From: Deltaproteobacteria bacterium
GTDB lineage: Bacteria; Myxococcota_A; Polyangia; HGW-17
DNA length: 64,000 bases
Direction: 5' to 3'
Assembly (NCBI GenBank): GCA_016937155.1
Contig: JAFGWM010000041.1
Location: 1-64,000 of the forward strand
Position numbers and translations under genes: made by a program
The notes under the pieces: model-generated
What the model was told of the DNA's origin: nothing
The model's database searches: none
Seen by the model: the letters and a program-made list of their open reading frames with translations, nothing else
In this document: in pieces, positions 38,998 through 49,164 of the stretch
Position numbering within the stretch: position 1 is the first letter of the stretch
Layout: each line of letters opens with the position of its first letter

Positions 38998-40047
38998 ATG
39001 GCAGCCAACTGTATAGGATTAGATATTGGTGCTAGTGCGGTAAAAGTAGTCCAGTTAAGGGAGACCAGAAAAGGCCTTTATCTGGAAAACTTTGGTATAC
39101 GAAACCTTCCGCCTCAATCCATTGTTGATGGAACAATAATGAATCAGGTGGCAGTGTTAGAGGCGATAGAATCCCTTTTTGCAAGTATGGGTATCAAACG
39201 AAAAGAAGTAGCTCTTGCGGTCAGTGGAAGAAATGTGATTGTTAAAAAAATTGCTCTTCCACAGATGTCCATGACAGATTTATCCGAGGAACTCAGCCTT
39301 GAGATGAAGCATCATATCCCATTTGCGAGAGAAGAGGTGGAAGTTGATTATGAGGTTGTGGTGCCTAAAAATGCTGAAGGGCAGATGGAAGTGCTTCTGG
39401 TGGCTGCCAAGAAAGAAATAATTGTGGATTATCTGGAGCTTGTTCGTGAGGCTGGTCTTCAGACAACAGTTCTGGATGTAAGTGCTTTTGCAGTACAGAA
39501 TATATACGAACGATGCAGAGGAATAAGCCCTGTTGATACACTGATAATTCTCAATGTAGGAGCAGTATCTACGAGTATAAATATTGTACTTGGTGGAGTT
39601 ACAACCTTTGTAAGAGACGTGAGCATCGGTGGCGAAAGTGTTACCGGAGAGATTGCCAGATCCATGCAACTTAGTATGGAGGAAGCAGAATTCAGAAAAA
39701 GTGAAGCTGCGTCGGGTATAGGTGTGGATCCTGATTTGATGAAAATAATTACAAAAGTGTGTGATGTTATGGCTGGGGAATTTCAAAGATCGATTGATTA
39801 TTTTCTGTCAAGTACCAGAGCCACTGAAAAAATCAGACTGGTGGTGACTGGTGGTGGAAGCATTCTTAAACCCCTGGTTCATTCTATTGAGAGGAAATCT
39901 CATTTACCTGTAGAGGTTTTTGATGGATTCACTCAGGGAGTTATTGTGGATCCCGCTAAATTTGACATGAATCTTTTACAGGCACGGGCTGCTACAGCAA
40001 GTGTGGCCCTGGGACTGGCACTGCGTCGCCCAGGGGATAAGCGTTAG
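38998..40047 (+). CDS. pilM: Type IV pilus assembly protein PilM
   Basis: PilM is the cytoplasmic actin-like ATPase of the pilus alignment complex, which binds the PilN N-terminus at the inner membrane. In 349 residues the actin fold shows 'IGLDIGASAVKVVQL', 'LNVGAVSTSINIV' and 'LVVTGGGSILKPL', as in the family. AAGGTG lies just before the ATG. It is the first gene of the pilMNOPQ operon, whose spacings are 17, 12, 3 and 10 bases. The promoter with TGTAGTA repeats is directly upstream. Confidence 0.95.
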   Translation: MAANCIGLDIGASAVKVVQLRETRKGLYLENFGIRNLPPQSIVDGTIMNQVAVLEAIESLFASMGIKRKEVALAVSGRNVIVKKIALPQMSMTDLSEELSLEMKHHIPFAREEVEVDYEVVVPKNAEGQMEVLLVAAKKEIIVDYLELVREAGLQTTVLDVSAFAVQNIYERCRGISPVDTLIILNVGAVSTSINIVLGGVTTFVRDVSIGGESVTGEIARSMQLSMEEAEFRKSEAASGIGVDPDLMKIITKVCDVMAGEFQRSIDYFLSSTRATEKIRLVVTGGGSILKPLVHSIERKSHLPVEVFDGFTQGVIVDPAKFDMNLLQARAATASVALGLALRRPGDKR

Positions 40048-40064
40048 GAATCTGGAGCTGAAAG

Positions 40065-40706
40065 ATGATAAGAATAAATCTAATTCCTCAAAAAACATCT
40101 CCCAGCCAGATAAAGGGACAGCAGTTTCTGATGCTTGCCTTTCTGGCAGTAGCTGCATGTGGTGGCGGATTATATTATCACCACAATTTTATCCTGGATC
40201 TGTCACCCATTGAAAAAAATGAAAAAGAGACTGGTATCTTGGATAAACAACTTGCCGGTCTGAGAGCAAGACTTGGAAGAATAAAGGTCCTTCCTGTTCA
40301 GGAGAAGAAAAAGCTCGAGGATAAGTACAAGAAGAAACTTCAGACTGTAACAAGAATTGAAAAGGTCAGATCCAATCCTGTGTTTGCTCTTCTGGAAATG
40401 TCCCGTTTAATGAGCGTCGGCCAGTTGCCAACTGTTGCTCCCGGGAATGTAAAAGCAAGAATGGAACTGGATCCAAACTGGGATCCATCACCGATATTTC
40501 TTACAAAACTGACTGAAAAGGCTCGTGAGGTGGAAATCAAGGGTTTTGCGCGTACTCACTATGACATCTCCGAATTCTCCAGAAGGTTGAGAATAAGTGA
40601 GTATTTCAGAAGACCGGAAATAGTTGAGTCCAAGGTTGGCAACGATAAATTGAATGAATCAAACGGAATGGTTGAGTTTACCATCAGAGCTCAGATGGTT
40701 TATTAG
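40065..40706 (+). CDS. pilN: Type IV pilus assembly protein PilN
   Basis: PilN is a single-span inner-membrane protein that links PilM to PilO. The N-terminal 'MIRINLIPQK' is the conserved PilM-binding peptide. A membrane helix follows at about residues 22-40 (FLAVAACGGGLYY), then a coiled coil and a periplasmic ferredoxin-like domain. The length of 213 residues is typical. GGAGCTGAAAG before the ATG gives a reasonable ribosome site. Confidence 0.93.
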   Translation: MIRINLIPQKTSPSQIKGQQFLMLAFLAVAACGGGLYYHHNFILDLSPIEKNEKETGILDKQLAGLRARLGRIKVLPVQEKKKLEDKYKKKLQTVTRIEKVRSNPVFALLEMSRLMSVGQLPTVAPGNVKARMELDPNWDPSPIFLTKLTEKAREVEIKGFARTHYDISEFSRRLRISEYFRRPEIVESKVGNDKLNESNGMVEFTIRAQMVY

Positions 40707-40718
40707 GAAGGTTTTGCC

Positions 40719-41405
40719 ATGCAGAAAGTATACCACTGGTTAGCTACTGCTCCACTTTCACAGAAATTACTCATTGTAGTGGTTTTACTCGCCGCCATGT
40801 GCGGATGGTATTACATGAAACCATATAAAGCTGCAAAGGATAGAGTTGAGGAATCCCGAAAACAATTAAATTATTCAAGGGTGTCCCTCATGGAAGCCAA
40901 ACGTCGTCTAAAGGAAGCAACAAAAGCACGTGAAGAAATGAAAATGATGCAAACCCGCGGGGAGGATCTGGATAAAAGAATTCCCGGCAGGGTTGATATG
41001 TCAGAACTCGTTGGTGAGCTTGATCAGATGTCTGATGACGTGAAGATTATTGAAATCAAACCTATGGAAGATGATGATGCAAGTTATGACAGTGTTGTTA
41101 TCAAACCTATTAATTTCAGGGTTGAGGGTAGATTTCACAGTATACTGAAATTTCTTTATAAAATGTTCAAAATGAACAGGCTTATGGATATTGGAGATAT
41201 TGATCTTAAACGAAAATCAATTGCAGATAATAAAAAGGATGGAGCAAAACAGATGAATTTTGATTTGGTGGGTGAATTCACTGCAAGAATTTATTTCAGC
41301 CCCGTTGTTATGCCGGCGGCTAAACCAGGGAAGAAACCTGCAAATCTTCTTAATAAAGGTGCTCAAAGGCTGACAATGGGTCCTATGATAATGATGCCGA
41401 GGTAA
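40719..41405 (+). CDS. pilO: Type IV pilus assembly protein PilO
   Basis: PilO pairs with PilN in the inner-membrane alignment complex. The 228-residue protein has a cytoplasmic start, a membrane helix at about residues 14-32 (LLIVVVLLAAMCGWYY), a coiled coil and a periplasmic domain containing 'FRVEGRFHSILKFLYKM', which is characteristic of PilO. A GGAAGG site precedes the ATG. Position between pilN and pilP supports the call. Confidence 0.92.
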   Translation: MQKVYHWLATAPLSQKLLIVVVLLAAMCGWYYMKPYKAAKDRVEESRKQLNYSRVSLMEAKRRLKEATKAREEMKMMQTRGEDLDKRIPGRVDMSELVGELDQMSDDVKIIEIKPMEDDDASYDSVVIKPINFRVEGRFHSILKFLYKMFKMNRLMDIGDIDLKRKSIADNKKDGAKQMNFDLVGEFTARIYFSPVVMPAAKPGKKPANLLNKGAQRLTMGPMIMMPR

Positions 41406-41408
41406 ATT

Positions 41409-42101
41409 ATGAAAAATATACCTGTAATTGTATTTCTTCTAGTTATGGCTCTTTCAGGGTGTGGAGGTGATGGTGGTTCTGGAGGCGGTTCACATTCTCA
41501 GGCCCCTATGGCAAGTGTTGCACCCATGAATCTGCGTCCTGTAAAGGCAAACAAAAAAAAGGCTGTTAAGCCTGCAAATATTAACTTTTTTGCGGATCAG
41601 AATCTGACAATTCCTCCATTTAATGCTGAAGCAAGAAATATTGCTGTGGAACTGTTTGTGGAGAACGGAAAAGAACAGCGGGATCCTTTTAGAAATCTTT
41701 ATGAGGATATGCTTACGGATACTAAGACTGATATTTCCAGTCAGAATATTTCAGGTAATGAAGAAGGTACTATGGTTTTGTTAGAGCATTTTACTCTTTC
41801 TCAGTTGAAATTAACTGGAATTATCTGGTCCGCTGGTAGAGAAAAAGCATTATTCCAGAGTCCGGATGGACAGCCAACAAGTGTAAATAAGGATGACAGA
41901 ATTTCAAAAGTGAAGGCTCTTGTAAAGGAAATTACTCACGACAGAGTTCTTCTGGAAATTCCCGGAAAAAAGGGTGAAACAGGAAAAATGATGGAGTTCA
42001 CTCTTGTCAGGGCAAGTGGCCCTTACCAGATACAGTATGATAAATTGAGACCGGATCAGCGTGGAATTAGAGTCAGGCTGAGGAACTGGAAAAGGAAATA
42101 G
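41409..42101 (+). CDS. pilP: Type IV pilus lipoprotein PilP
   Basis: PilP is the inner-membrane lipoprotein that joins PilN/PilO to the secretin PilQ. The lipobox ALSGC is near residue 18, followed by a Gly/Ser stretch and then a Lys/Pro/Asn-rich linker. The C-terminal beta domain carries 'LTGIIWSAGREKALFQSPDG', typical of PilP/HofP. The segment EQRDPFRNL matches the conserved DPF region that precedes that domain. At 230 residues it is slightly longer than average. It starts three bases after the pilO stop. Confidence 0.92.
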   Translation: MKNIPVIVFLLVMALSGCGGDGGSGGGSHSQAPMASVAPMNLRPVKANKKKAVKPANINFFADQNLTIPPFNAEARNIAVELFVENGKEQRDPFRNLYEDMLTDTKTDISSQNISGNEEGTMVLLEHFTLSQLKLTGIIWSAGREKALFQSPDGQPTSVNKDDRISKVKALVKEITHDRVLLEIPGKKGETGKMMEFTLVRASGPYQIQYDKLRPDQRGIRVRLRNWKRK

Positions 42102-42111
42102 GAGAATAGCC

Positions 42112-45100
42112 ATGAGAAACTATAACAATCTTCTCAAATCAGCATTTTTGCTTGGAATATTGCTGCTAATGCCAGGCAAAGTGTATGGCTCGGTTAGTGG
42201 CAATGCACTGACTGGAATATCCCACAGGGAAAATGGGGCTTCAACTGAGGTCATCTTGCAGTTCAGAAAATCTGCATCTTTCTCTATTTTCCGTAATGAA
42301 AACCCGCCTGGAATAACAGTTGAGCTTTCACATACCAGAAATACATCCGTGAAAAATCTAAAGATTGAAAGCTGGGCAGTAAGCCATGTCGGTGTTACTA
42401 CAGCTGTCTCAGGAAAAGTACCATATACAAGAGTTTCCATTGTAAAAGCAAGAAGTGGTACATACACAGTCAACTCTGCTGGAAACAGGGTAATAATTGT
42501 GTTTACCGCAACTCAACTGCCACCTCCATCTACCAGAGCAGCTATGGAGAAGCTGGCATTCTTGCAGAAAAAATCACTGGAAATGGAGAAACAGCTTTCC
42601 ATAGCCAGAGAGAATCTAAACAGAGCAAAAAGGGAACTGAAAAGAGAAAAGAACTCACTATCCAGTGTGAGATCAGATAATTCTGTTTTGCTTTCCCATA
42701 TTGAAAAAGCAAGAAAAGATTACCGTTTGCTGAGTAAGAAGAATTCAGATGTCAGAACAGATCTTCTGAACGCTGAAAAACAGATGAAAATTGCAAGAAT
42801 AAAAGAGAAAGCAGCACTCAGAAGACTTGCAGATATAGAAAGAAAAACCAGACAGTTAAACAATGCAAGAGTTGAAAAAGCAGCAGAACTAAAAAAACTC
42901 TCCAGAACTATTTGGAAAAGAAAAATCGGTGCCAGAAAACTTGAGAAAAAACTCAGTGAATATCAAAAAGAGATTTCCAGACTCAATCTGAGAATTTCCA
43001 GTGGTGAAAAAAATGGACAGAGCGTTACGGACCTTAAAACCAGAGTAGTACTGCTTAAAACCCGAACTTTTAAAGCTGAAAAAGATCTGAAATCAGTCAG
43101 AAAAACTGTTGAAAAAGAAGAATCCAGAAGAGAAAATTTAAAAAAACTGTCAGGTATTGAAGAAAAGAAGCTTGCAGCTCTGAAACTCAAACTTGGTAAT
43201 GAACGCACTATTCTCAACTCTGAAATTTCAAAACTTGAACAAGGGGTAGACAACCTCAGAAATAAGAGAAGTTCCCTCCTCGGTGAACTCAAGGCACTGG
43301 AGAATAACAGAAAATTTGTTCAAAAATCACTAAGAAAAGAGAAAATACTTGCCCGAAAATACAGAGAAGCCAGAGAAAACTCTCAGAAACTTCATCAAAA
43401 AGCCCGGAAACTTGCTGATATTGAAATTTCCAAAGCTAAAAAAGCTGAACTGGAGCGAAAAAATCACGAAATTCTTATTGCAGACCAGAAAAACTATCTC
43501 AGTAAATTGAATGTTCTCAAAAAGAATGAAGAGAACAATCTTAGAGCATTAAAGAAAAGTCGTGAAGCACATGAGAGATTACTGAAATCTGAGAAAGCGA
43601 GACTCAGAAACCTTGCTCTTTCAGGTAATCGTAAAAAACTTGAGGCATTACGTCAGAAACAGTCCAGAAGACTTGCAGAAATTAAAAAGCTTGAAAAATC
43701 AGCATATAGAGTCAAAAGAAATATTGATAATGCTACTTCTTCACTGAGAACAATGGAGAAAAAAATATCCCGTTCAATGAAGAAACTTAATCGTACCCGC
43801 AATGAGTACAGGGATATTCAGGTTCAACTTGCCAGTATGTCAAAACTTCGTGATGAAGCCAGAGCCGGTCTTTTTCAGATGAAAGCAAGTCTGGAATCAA
43901 CAACTTTAAAAAGAAAAAGTGTTCAGAGAAAGTTGAATGTTCTTGAGAGAAATCTTGCAGGAAAACGCAGAGAAGTAAAGAAAGTCAGTATCAGACTGAG
44001 TTCAATGGAGAAAAAAATATCATCCTTATCAAGGGAAAAATATCTCCGGGAAGCTGAAATGAAGAGTCTCGCATCTACGGCTTCTCTTCTCGAAAAAAGA
44101 ATTCAGGAAAATAATGCAAAAATATCAGGACTTAACCTCCGTAAAACCAGACTGAAAAGTGAGATTGACAGCCTTGAATCCAGATACAGGAAAATTAAAT
44201 CCAGTATGGAAAAAGGTCGTAAAGCAAACGTTAGTGAAGAAAATCGTCTGGCTAAGCTTATGAAACTCAGAAAACAGAAAATTGCTGAACTGGAAGCAAA
44301 AAAAGCTGCTCTTTTAAAGGATATTGCAGCAGTTTCATCGGCAAAATCTGAAAAACATACCAGGAAAATTTCTGCTGATAAAAGCGTGGTGGCAACAATT
44401 ACAGCTGTCGATTTTGTAAACTCACCATGGTCTCATCAGGTTGTTTTGTCATTCAAGGGAAAAGAGATTCCTGACAGAACCTATCGCAAGGGGAACACAA
44501 TTCTTGTGAGACTTCCAGGGGCAGTATTTAATAAGGAACTTGCAAGAAATATGGATACCTCCGCATACAAGGGTCCGGTATCCAGATTTCTGACCTGGAA
44601 CAATTCAAAATCAGGGAAAGAAGCACTTGTTAAGATTTACACAAACGGTATCAGAAGAAGTGAAATAAGAAGAAGAGCTCATAAACTTGTTATTCTTATT
44701 CCAAAGTCTGTTGCAGAAGTCAGATCTCACAAAAACAGAATGAAGAATGTTGCTCCTACAGTTGTCGCTGGTTATTACTCAAACCTTGGAAAAGTTGTTA
44801 ACAACAATTTACCTACTGCAACAAAAAGGAAATACAGAAGAAGTATAAAACGCGCGGGAAAATCCAGAAGAGGTTACAGAGGCAGATTTGTTGATCTCGA
44901 TTTTAAGGATGCGGATCTTCACAATGTAATAAGACTTGTAACAGAAGTATGGGGAAGATCTGTTGTTATCCCCGATGATGTTAAAGGTACGGTAACAATA
45001 AAGCTTACTAATGTTCGTGTGGATAGAGCATTTGATGTGATTTTAAAATCCAAAGGTTTAGACTGGAGTTATGAAGGTGGAAATATCATTCGAATTATGA

Positions 45101-46179
45101 CTTACGATCAGATGAAAAAAGAACGTGAGGAAATGATTGCAAGAACTCAGACAAAGGTGAAACTCATCCAGACCGAAACCAGGCTCATTCCTATAAATTA
45201 TGCCAGTGCTCAGGATATTGCTAAAACGATCGAGTCAAACGTTAAAAGTTCCAGAGGGAAGGTCACTTTTGACAAGAGAACCAATGTAATTATTTTTGTG
45301 GATGTTCCATCTAAACTGAAGGTGGCTGAGAAGCTTGTCAGATCTCTGGATCTTCCAACTCCTCAGGTTCAGATCGAAGCAAGAATAGTTGAAGCTGAAT
45401 CCACATTCCTCAGAGAAATTGGTGTTCAGTGGGGTGGTTCACTTCTGGCATCCAGTGCTACTGGTAATCCAACCGGATTGATTTTCCCGAGTAATATTGG
45501 TATCGCCGGCGGTAATATGGATACAAAAACAGTTAGTGAAGGTATTTCAAGTGCTGGAGCAACCAATCCTGATTTTGCAGTTAATCTTCCTGCTTCAACA
45601 GGTAGTGGTTCCGGTGGTGCACTGGGAATGACACTGGGAAGTCTCGCAGGAGCGATGAATATAAACCTCAGACTGAGTGCTATGGAAGAGATAGGACATG
45701 TCAGGTCAATAGCAGCTCCTAAAATTACAACACTTGATAACACTGAAGCCAAAATAACTCAGGGTGTTGAAATCCCGTATCCCCAGTCCAGCGCTCAGGG
45801 TAATACTGTAATCATGAAACAGGCTGTTCTCAGTTTGAGTGTTACACCTCATGTAACCAATGATAATATGGTTCAGTTGAAAATTGAGGTAACAAAAGAC
45901 GAACCTGATGAAACCAACAAAGGTGCAGACGGTTCTCTGGGTATTGCCAAAAAAGCAGCAAAAACCAATATGTTGATTAAAAGTGGTGACACCGCAGTAA
46001 TTGGTGGTATTTATAAGAGACAGTCTACGCTATTATACAGAAAGATTCCATGGTTTGCAGATCTTCCGATTTTCGGTTGGCTCTTTAAGAGTCAGTACAA
46101 AAAGGATACCCGAAGCGAACTGCTTATATTCATAACACCAAGAGTACTTAACCGCTCCGGTGTAATTGGAAGTAAGTAA
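42112..46179 (+). CDS. pilQ: Type IV pilus secretin PilQ with a 600-residue coiled-coil insertion
   Basis: PilQ forms the outer-membrane pore for the pilus. This one has 1355 residues where 700-900 is usual. The order is signal peptide, AMIN domain (about 30-140), continuous Lys/Arg/Glu/Leu coiled coil (about 145-745), second AMIN domain (about 760-865, 'VVATITAVDFVNSPWSHQVV'), N0/STN domain (about 920-1000), N1/NolW domain (about 1020-1090), and secretin core to the end ('VRSIAAPKITTLDNTEA', 'SGDTAVIGGIYKRQ', 'ELLIFITPRVL'). The coil has no break in reading frame and the same codon style as the flanks. It is last of the five contiguous pil genes and is followed by a small lipoprotein. Confidence 0.93.
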   Translation: MRNYNNLLKSAFLLGILLLMPGKVYGSVSGNALTGISHRENGASTEVILQFRKSASFSIFRNENPPGITVELSHTRNTSVKNLKIESWAVSHVGVTTAVSGKVPYTRVSIVKARSGTYTVNSAGNRVIIVFTATQLPPPSTRAAMEKLAFLQKKSLEMEKQLSIARENLNRAKRELKREKNSLSSVRSDNSVLLSHIEKARKDYRLLSKKNSDVRTDLLNAEKQMKIARIKEKAALRRLADIERKTRQLNNARVEKAAELKKLSRTIWKRKIGARKLEKKLSEYQKEISRLNLRISSGEKNGQSVTDLKTRVVLLKTRTFKAEKDLKSVRKTVEKEESRRENLKKLSGIEEKKLAALKLKLGNERTILNSEISKLEQGVDNLRNKRSSLLGELKALENNRKFVQKSLRKEKILARKYREARENSQKLHQKARKLADIEISKAKKAELERKNHEILIADQKNYLSKLNVLKKNEENNLRALKKSREAHERLLKSEKARLRNLALSGNRKKLEALRQKQSRRLAEIKKLEKSAYRVKRNIDNATSSLRTMEKKISRSMKKLNRTRNEYRDIQVQLASMSKLRDEARAGLFQMKASLESTTLKRKSVQRKLNVLERNLAGKRREVKKVSIRLSSMEKKISSLSREKYLREAEMKSLASTASLLEKRIQENNAKISGLNLRKTRLKSEIDSLESRYRKIKSSMEKGRKANVSEENRLAKLMKLRKQKIAELEAKKAALLKDIAAVSSAKSEKHTRKISADKSVVATITAVDFVNSPWSHQVVLSFKGKEIPDRTYRKGNTILVRLPGAVFNKELARNMDTSAYKGPVSRFLTWNNSKSGKEALVKIYTNGIRRSEIRRRAHKLVILIPKSVAEVRSHKNRMKNVAPTVVAGYYSNLGKVVNNNLPTATKRKYRRSIKRAGKSRRGYRGRFVDLDFKDADLHNVIRLVTEVWGRSVVIPDDVKGTVTIKLTNVRVDRAFDVILKSKGLDWSYEGGNIIRIMTYDQMKKEREEMIARTQTKVKLIQTETRLIPINYASAQDIAKTIESNVKSSRGKVTFDKRTNVIIFVDVPSKLKVAEKLVRSLDLPTPQVQIEARIVEAESTFLREIGVQWGGSLLASSATGNPTGLIFPSNIGIAGGNMDTKTVSEGISSAGATNPDFAVNLPASTGSGSGGALGMTLGSLAGAMNINLRLSAMEEIGHVRSIAAPKITTLDNTEAKITQGVEIPYPQSSAQGNTVIMKQAVLSLSVTPHVTNDNMVQLKIEVTKDEPDETNKGADGSLGIAKKAAKTNMLIKSGDTAVIGGIYKRQSTLLYRKIPWFADLPIFGWLFKSQYKKDTRSELLIFITPRVLNRSGVIGSK

Positions 46180-46201: not shown

Positions 46202-46930
46202 ATGAAAAACAAATTTTTAATTCTGGCTATATTCATGATGATCAGTTCAGGATGTGCTGAAAACAGTTCTTCGCTGGTAATTGTTCAAAATCAGAGTCCC
46301 GAAACCAGCTGTACAGCATCAAACACTGTAGCTGATAACTTTATTTCACATGGAATTCTGGATCTTGGGGCAGCCAGATATAATATAACCCCACAGTACT
46401 ATGGCTGGTTCGTAATTGAGAATAATCTTACTTCAACTATTGAAAGTCATGGTATTGAGCTAAATAACGTCGAAATAAAGGAAGCTCATATAGATCTTAG
46501 TCTTGCCCAGGCTGGTGGAACGCTGGGATCTGATATAACTCAATTTGCAGACTATACTTTTGTAACTATTCCCCCAGGGGAGACCAGAAGTGTTCAGGTG
46601 AACCTGATACCCCCAAATGTAGCACAGAGACTCACCATTTCTTCTGGACAGTTCATTGAAGTTTTTGCGAAAGTACAACTTATCGGTGAGCGGGGGGGAA
46701 CCGAGATAGTTACCAATTCAATTAACTTTCCGGTAACTCTCTGTTACGGATGTCTTGTGGAAAACATAGGTCCATGCGATACAGCAACATTTCCCGAAAT
46801 TATTGAACAGGGTCATAGTTGTAATATGAGTCAGGATCTTAAACTTCACTGCTGCTATGATTCAAATTCTGCTGATGCTGACAATCCATACAGGTGCCCC
46901 GCTGTTGAAGGCACCACAACTGTGGAATAA
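46202..46930 (+). CDS. Lipoprotein downstream of pilQ
   Basis: This is a 242-residue lipoprotein with lipobox SSGC near residue 18. The middle is a predicted beta sandwich, and the last 60 residues hold six or more cysteines (LCYGC, CNMSQDLKLHCCYDS). No pilotin motif was recognised, but its place 22 bases after pilQ suggests a role with the secretin, such as a pilotin or stabiliser. The start was set at ATG 46202, after AAGGAACGGAAC. The function is not known. Confidence 0.75.
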   Translation: MKNKFLILAIFMMISSGCAENSSSLVIVQNQSPETSCTASNTVADNFISHGILDLGAARYNITPQYYGWFVIENNLTSTIESHGIELNNVEIKEAHIDLSLAQAGGTLGSDITQFADYTFVTIPPGETRSVQVNLIPPNVAQRLTISSGQFIEVFAKVQLIGERGGTEIVTNSINFPVTLCYGCLVENIGPCDTATFPEIIEQGHSCNMSQDLKLHCCYDSNSADADNPYRCPAVEGTTTVE

Positions 46931-47985: not shown

Positions 47986-49164
47986 ATGAGCAAAACTCCT
48001 GTCGCGGTTTTTGTAAGTGGTCGTGGTTCCAATATGAAATCCCTGATTGATTGGTCCAGGAAATATAATAACTGCGGCTGGGAGGTTGTGTGTGTTATTT
48101 CAGACAATAAGGATGCGCCTGCTCTGAAAATCGCTTCAGACATGGAAGTCACCATATATTTTGTTGATCCTTCAAATAAATCGAAGGCTGAATATGAATC
48201 TGAAATTGATGAAATCCTGAATTCACATGACGTGGGTATTATAGCACTGGCAGGTTTCATGAGGATTATAGGTGAATACCTTCTGAAAAGATGGAGTGGT
48301 AGAATACTAAACATTCACCCATCACTTTTACCTGCTTTTCCAGGTCTTAATGTACAAAAACGTGCTCTGAATGCAGGAGTTGGGTTTTCAGGATGCAGTG
48401 TTCATCTTGTGGATGAAGGAATTGATTCGGGCAAAATCCTTGGCCAGGCCACAGTGGAGGTCCAACGGGGTGAGACGGTTGAATCTCTGACCAATAGAAT
48501 TCTTGAAAAGGAACACAAACTTTATCCCGAAGTGATCACCGAATACATAAATGTGATAAACCATAGGAGTTCAGTTGAGGAATTCATTATCAGGATGCAT
48601 GAACGTTTTGACATTATTCATGGCACTAAAACCGGGGAGAATTTACTTAATGACATTTCCGGTAACAAACCGGCTTTGGGTGTCAGTGCGTGTCTTTGCG
48701 GAATAAACTGCCGGTATGATGGAAAAAATCAATTTATGAAGGATTTATTGAGGATTGATGAAGAATACGAAATAGTTCCGTTATGTCCAGAGTTTGCTGG
48801 TAATCTGGGTGTTCCTCGACCTCCCATGGAATTTACTCTGCTGGATGTTTCCAGAGGAGAAAATCAGGTGGATCTCCAGATTGAAACCGGTGAATCAAAG
48901 CTCAGTGAACTGATTTGTGGTTCAGAGAAGATGAAGACGGTTTTCAACGAATTATCATGTCATTGTTTTATAGGAAAGGAACGTAGTCCTTCATGTGGTT
49001 CCAACTTTGTTCACATGGATGGAAAACTGGTGTTAAATAAAGGAATTTTTACTTCTATACTGGCGCAGGATCATATTCCGGTGATATCCGATGAAGTTTT
49101 TCGTATTAATTCAAAAGGGGTTCTTAAGAGAGTTTTATTGAATTTGAAGAATAAAAAGTGTTAG
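47986..49164 (+). CDS. purN: PurN-TudS fusion: GAR transformylase with DUF523 domain
   Basis: The first 200 residues are phosphoribosylglycinamide formyltransferase, with 'VFVSGRGSNMKSLID', 'LAGFMRIIG', the NIHPSLLPAFPG active-site loop and 'VDEGIDSGKILGQ'. Residues about 230-380 form a DUF523 domain, the family that includes the iron-sulfur 2-thiouracil desulfurase TudS. Its three probable cluster cysteines are present: Cys236 (SACLCG), Cys267 (LCPEF) and Cys337 (RSPSCGS). The two are joined by a 30-residue helical linker with no start or stop between them. It directly follows purM. Both domain calls are firm; activity of the second on thiolated bases is inference. Confidence 0.92.
   Translation: MSKTPVAVFVSGRGSNMKSLIDWSRKYNNCGWEVVCVISDNKDAPALKIASDMEVTIYFVDPSNKSKAEYESEIDEILNSHDVGIIALAGFMRIIGEYLLKRWSGRILNIHPSLLPAFPGLNVQKRALNAGVGFSGCSVHLVDEGIDSGKILGQATVEVQRGETVESLTNRILEKEHKLYPEVITEYINVINHRSSVEEFIIRMHERFDIIHGTKTGENLLNDISGNKPALGVSACLCGINCRYDGKNQFMKDLLRIDEEYEIVPLCPEFAGNLGVPRPPMEFTLLDVSRGENQVDLQIETGESKLSELICGSEKMKTVFNELSCHCFIGKERSPSCGSNFVHMDGKLVLNKGIFTSILAQDHIPVISDEVFRINSKGVLKRVLLNLKNKKC

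Follow-up and report, generated by a model that had tools for sequence, protein, structure and literature searches.

We analysed a stretch of 64,000 nucleotides (positions 1–64,000 of contig JAFGWM010000041.1; hereafter the window) in which pilM, pilN, pilO and pilP (38998–42101) directly precede pilQ, a single uninterrupted open frame of 1355 codons on the plus strand (42112–46179; Table 1). The encoded protein consists, in order, of a signal peptide, an AMIN domain (AMIN1), an ∼610-residue coiled coil, a second AMIN domain (AMIN2), and N0, Secretin_N and secretin domains. Elsewhere in this genome, profile searches detect pilB and pilT with scores that exceed the cut-offs, each on a contig other than that of the window. 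A coil in another secretin of the genome was considered and rejected, as the remaining secretin frames (867 and 493 aa) are of ordinary length.

Table 1. Genes of the pilus cluster in the window, with domains and predicted turns of PilQ
Feature	Position	Strand	Evidence
pilM	38998..40047	+	TIGR01175, PF11104
pilN	40065..40706	+	PF05137
pilO	40719..41405	+	PF04350
pilP	41409..42101	+	PF04351
pilQ, 1355 aa, type IVa pilus secretin with coiled-coil insert	42112..46179	+	Pfam, NCBIfam
Likely Sec signal peptide, aa 1–26, MRNYNNLLKSAFLLGILLLMPGKVYG	42112..42189	+	Sequence reading by eye
AMIN1, aa 34–129	42211..42498	+	Pfam AMIN scanned alone; home-made profile; Foldseek to PilQ AMIN structures
Coiled-coil insert, aa 139–748	42526..44355	+	COILS-type score, AF2
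Predicted turn 1, aa 301–305, closes 162-residue helix	43012..43026	+	AF2; five-species helix-cost peak aa 304
Predicted turn 2, aa 505–506 (Gly-Asn), between 199- and 194-residue helices	43624..43629	+	AF2; helix-cost peak aa 506
Predicted turn 3, aa 701–706, then 38-residue helix	44212..44229	+	AF2; helix-cost peak aa 699
AMIN2, aa 763–861	44398..44694	+	Pfam AMIN best stretch aa 766–826; home-made profile
N0 / STN domain, aa 929–996	44896..45099	+	Pfam
Secretin_N domain, aa 1023–1085	45178..45366	+	Pfam
Secretin barrel, aa 1190–1346	45679..46149	+	Pfam

Identity of the protein and of its insert

Besides its place behind pilM, pilN, pilO and pilP, four observations identify the product of the 1355-codon frame as a genuine PilQ: (i) it matches TIGR02515 (IV_pilus_PilQ, NCBIfam) with 400.6 bits against a cut-off of 284.35; (ii) N0, Secretin_N and Secretin stand in PilQ-typical order (Pfam); (iii) it has two AMIN domains, a usual but not universal N-terminal feature of PilQ; and (iv) the closest solved structure is Myxococcus xanthus PilQ (3jc8; E 3e-127 over residues 917–1351). 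The stretch at aa 766–826 is the top-scoring AMIN match in a Pfam scan of the entire protein, while that at aa 38–96 reaches 22.6 bits (cut-off 20.5) with the N-terminus scanned by itself. Short linkers between AMIN domains and a length of ∼570–900 aa, which are usual rather than defining properties of PilQ (solved PilQ-type chains have 571–901 aa), are not found here.

Other assignments were rejected. The match to the type II secretion secretin GspD (TIGR02517) is 213.8 bits, below the cut-off of 351; that to SMC proteins (TIGR02168) is 39 bits against 567, the likeness being that of the coil only; and the Pfam scan detects no SLH domain that would place the window protein in the SlpA/OmpM tether class.

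Between AMIN1 and AMIN2, K, R and E make up 38% of the ∼610 residues, proline is absent from aa 140 to 771, and the hydrophobicity period peaks at 3.50. By a re-coded COILS-type score, reliable in its contrasts only, 588 of the 610 residues of aa 141–750 are coiled coil; 20 shuffles of that segment averaged 148 and never exceeded 248, and in PilQs without the insert not one residue ahead of the core is scored as coil. The first-pass annotation had read the frame as an unbroken AMIN–coil–AMIN–N0–N1–secretin protein and had proposed coiled-coil and structure prediction on residues 140–750; the ORF, Pfam, TIGR02515 and the COILS-type contrast all bear out its reading. Internal repeats in this coil do not rise above the heptad-shuffled control.

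Two patches in the coil, SKLRDEARAGLFxMKASLES (aa 577–596, 43840–43899) and LSREKYLxEAEMKSLAS (aa 635–651, 44014–44064), are nearly identical in a related genome (G001), while the coil around them evolves fast and AF2 confidence is low there. They are possible sites of contact with a partner or with the coil itself.

Immediately after pilQ, a lipoprotein-like gene (46202–46927) matches nothing in Pfam or NCBIfam. A relative of it sits downstream of pilQ in many members of the class, both coil-bearing and coil-less; its product is thus a PilQ-linked protein, and possibly a pilotin. Further on (47986–49164), after a purM-like gene, a PurN-like formyltransferase domain is fused to a 2-thiouracil desulfurase domain (PF04463).

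Predicted fold of the coil

An AF2 model of aa 22–926, built from an alignment of two sequences (mean pLDDT 64.6, full pTM 0.30), divides the coil at three turns into helices of 162, 199, 194 and 38 residues (aa 139–300, 306–504, 507–700 and 707–744), with confidence peaking on either side of the breaks. Averaged over five species (the window, L032, L033, L035 and L038), helix propensity, a method independent of AlphaFold, gives three inner peaks of helix cost that exceed 2 s.d., at aa 304, 506 and 699, and no others. The predicted turns thus coincide with conserved helix-breaking sites, which favours a fold-back for the window protein and disfavours a single straight helix. Modelled alone, aa 400–611 reach a pLDDT of 93.1 and a pTM of 0.64, and the helix is interrupted for two residues, Gly505-Asn506. 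Foldseek matches this segment to antiparallel hairpins of the Smc arm (5xg2, TM 0.63) and of a chemoreceptor (3g6b, TM 0.73); E-values are no better than 1e-3, so that the likeness is that of generic coiled coils and we claim no relationship. For the full model, the best matches are PilQ AMIN domains, and superposition of the coil on tektin-like rods (rmsd near 60 Å) is uninformative.

According to the model, the coil most likely zigzags into a rod of ∼30 nm and not into a 90-nm shaft; its helices would presumably pack against each other. The earlier argument that a straight 90-nm helix could not stand upright in the periplasm is sound. Of the three ways out that it offered (folding back, running along the wall or forming a sheath), AF2 and the conserved helix breakers single out the first for this protein, and, counting 0.1485 nm for each residue, legs of ∼24, 29.5, 29 and 6 nm would remove the 90-nm problem.

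This geometry is not a rule for the phylum. Among 23 groups, the one to which the window protein belongs is alone in having clear helix-cost peaks; in family f26 glycine motifs are spaced ∼200 residues apart, and elsewhere breaks are irregular or absent. Families f28, f38 and f46 have 300–450 residues without clear break or glycine, so that fold-back into 30-nm legs need not be general. Such unbroken coils, like the longest contours described below, are hard to fit into folded legs and would be better accommodated if the coil were long, largely straight or intermolecular, ran tens to hundreds of nanometres along the wall as a tether or meshwork, and linked neighbouring pores or a polar patch. 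For the window protein, however, hairpins agree better with AF2 and with the conserved turns, and we consider such a meshwork rather improbable.

Distribution, growth and selection of the coil

The coil is real and common to much of the phylum Myxococcota, the scope of our survey. The first-pass annotation had allowed that two genes might have been misjoined or that close orthologues might lack the coil. However, the nearest relative (L031/L032, on JAHJMN010000078.1, a separate MAG) has the coil, L031 (G001, Myxococcota MAG Old_saline.mb.39) shares the layout of the window protein, with 43% identity in the N-terminal part, and every 5'-complete member of the protein's family carries it. The same layout in independent genomes rules out an assembly error or a gene fusion. 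Among 34 PilQ loci of relatives up to class level (L032–L065), picked regardless of length, 26 are coil-bearing, five are coil-less and three are truncated too much to tell. The proposed search for further AMIN–coil–AMIN secretins found at least 60 coil residues in 82 of 113 inspected Myxococcota PilQ frames (65 of the 82 complete at the 5' end), a proportion that is not a population frequency because the loci from the wider phylum were picked partly for long frames. What had been taken for a single odd protein is therefore a lineage-wide trait with an extreme range of length.

In the 5'-complete coil-bearing PilQs, the coil spans 153 to 1984 residues (median 617) and in every case sits between the first and the last AMIN domain, from which it is separated by medians of 12 and 19 residues. 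The longest (L067) lies in a PilQ of 2787 aa (coil span aa 181–2164) and has a helix contour of ∼295 nm; L068 and L069 contain 1728 and 1749 proline-free residues. On a tree of 74 secretin cores, rooted at midpoint, coil presence changes four times, compared to 21 with shuffled labels, in both a quick and a careful search. If coil-less outer groups root the tree, these sequences would point to a single old gain and few losses, the latter putatively in families f8, f14/f17/f20/f21 and f50, plus G031 in f7. On the Polyangia side, families f14, f17 and f21 retain two AMIN domains but have no coil, which indicates that the coil is dispensable for a T4aP machine. A separate coil gene was looked for beside coil-less PilQs and not found.

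Several loci depart from the common pattern. The PilQ frames of L058 and L101 (G031 and G101) have no detectable AMIN domain, in otherwise AMIN-bearing groups. In L073 (G154) an in-frame TAA, which may be a real break or an assembly fault, separates an AMIN–coil–AMIN frame of 1814 codons from a secretin core of 400 codons. About 1.2 kb past pilQ in L039 and L041 (G010 and G012) lies an ORF with a receiver domain, an acidic linker and coiled-coil repeats, presumably akin to FrzS-type regulators of pili.

The long coils have lengthened by internal duplication, with periods that differ by lineage: 199 in L069, 211/232 in L068, 221/540 in L067, 94 in L070, 50/25 in L072 and 103/117/220 in L078, all exceeding heptad-shuffled controls. 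Indels of 204–218 residues occur inside one genus (L068 compared to L107–L109). Growth of this kind in several lineages, and a coil that diverges faster than the core (40% compared to 91% identity to L032), could be read as an expanding low-complexity filler that drifts with no specific role and is tolerated outside the core. However, coil dN/dS is mostly 0.09–0.17 in close pairs, about the level of AMIN2 and higher than in the core (0.01–0.08), and up to 0.35 in more diverged pairs. A set of 29 near-independent pairs yields 36 coil indels of at least seven residues, of which 21 are multiples of seven (binomial P 1.1e-9 against 1/7), while those outside the coil are mostly of 1–5 residues. Purifying selection and heptad-sized indels argue that the coiled coil is maintained; given also the lack of proline across 600–1700 residues and the conserved turns and patches, we regard mere filler as very unlikely.

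A possible wall-anchored side arm

The relevant systems for comparison are known PilQ proteins and coiled-coil tethers. Myxococcus xanthus PilQ (PDB 3jc8; PMC10653833) shares the secretin family, the phylum and the pilMNOPQ cluster, and its first and last AMIN domains align with those of a coil-bearing relative. By contrast, it has 901 aa and three AMIN domains on flexible linkers with no coiled coil reported (PMC10653833), whereas the ∼610-residue coil occupies the place between first and last AMIN in the window protein. Pseudomonas and Neisseria PilQ (6ve2, 4av2) have the same AMIN–AMIN–N0–secretin order and an AMIN fold matched by Foldseek, but are 731–745 aa long with short inter-AMIN linkers. 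SlpA/OmpM proteins (PMC9388160, PMC10628300) are alike in outline, with an N-terminal wall-binding domain, a long periplasmic coiled coil and a C-terminal outer-membrane barrel; they differ in having SLH rather than AMIN domains, a trimeric parallel coil and a general barrel rather than a pilus secretin, and no test made reveals homology to the window PilQ.

The first-pass annotation also proposed a structural filament or spacer for the pilus pore, and in a related form ∼30-nm folded rods could stand upright round the pilus, from the outer membrane to the wall or inner membrane, and set a distance or guide the pilus as SlpA/OmpM coils might by analogy. The predicted legs of ∼24–30 nm in the window coil would fit such a cage, and in Deinococcus SlpA a coiled coil of ∼28 nm runs from a cell-wall-binding domain to an outer-membrane barrel (PMC9388160). 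However, the coil is N-terminal to N0 and thus hangs beside the axial stack. Median lengths of PilN, PilO and PilP at coil-bearing and coil-less loci are 219/208, 208/200 and 230/190 aa, and rank correlations with coil size are weak (0.31–0.38, with noise added by first-ATG starts). These partners hence stay nearly constant while PilQ doubles or triples, which speaks against an axial spacer, and a ruler should not tolerate a more than tenfold difference in coil length among relatives, with large differences even within one genus. We consider an upright spacer or cage unlikely.

Our preferred reading, which we regard as evenly poised, is a working type IVa pilus secretin with a peptidoglycan-anchored coiled-coil side arm. 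The arm would have pushed apart the two peptidoglycan-binding AMIN domains of PilQ, with one arm per subunit of the outer-membrane ring, and would fold at its three turns into the antiparallel rod. AMIN2 would anchor the ring to the wall near the pore and AMIN1 would grip the wall further out; for a complete zigzag, this second grip would lie ∼18 nm along the rod. Together the arms could then spread the wall grip of the pore over a wider patch, and thereby stabilize the machine against pilus pulling, mark the position of the machine at the pole, or both. The AMIN domains of M. xanthus PilQ bind septal/polar peptidoglycan, and recruitment of PilQ depends on them (PMC10653833), which favours a side arm with a second wall anchor; one AMIN domain also suffices there for assembly and polar localization (PMC10653833), which casts doubt on the need for a second, distant one. 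Domain order, the coil with its conservation and selection, and the operon context are observed, and the fold-back is predicted. We infer the single arm per subunit, its lateral orientation, the wall anchoring by both AMIN domains and a mechanical or localizing role, as we do the partner, oligomer state and function of the coil.

At the scale of the phylum, we suggest only tentatively that arm-bearing PilQ rings are a so far undescribed structural element of T4P: their wall-anchored coiled-coil arms would follow the peptidoglycan for tens to hundreds of nanometres, and duplication of coil units would change arm length rapidly in evolution. A description of a PilQ coil was not found in the openly accessible full-text literature searched. 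A paper that combines PilQ, coiled coils and AMIN domains concerns MglA/SgmX, and the words 'coil' and 'coiled', respectively, are absent from two surveys of myxobacterial T4P. As far as could be found, the series of coil lengths in PilQ is also undescribed; a survey of PilQ architecture gives zero to three AMIN domains.

Few envelope machines have been mapped as well as that of the type IVa pilus. Published architectures place the AMIN domains of PilQ on short flexible linkers, while the coil doubles or triples the protein. Because selection maintains this coil in many myxococcotal families, and because it is unreported for the well-studied M. xanthus, the standard picture misses a large part of the machine in part of the phylum. 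The natural series of lengths, from 150 to 2000 residues, together with coil-less relatives, offers a test of how a pilus pore holds on to the wall under load.
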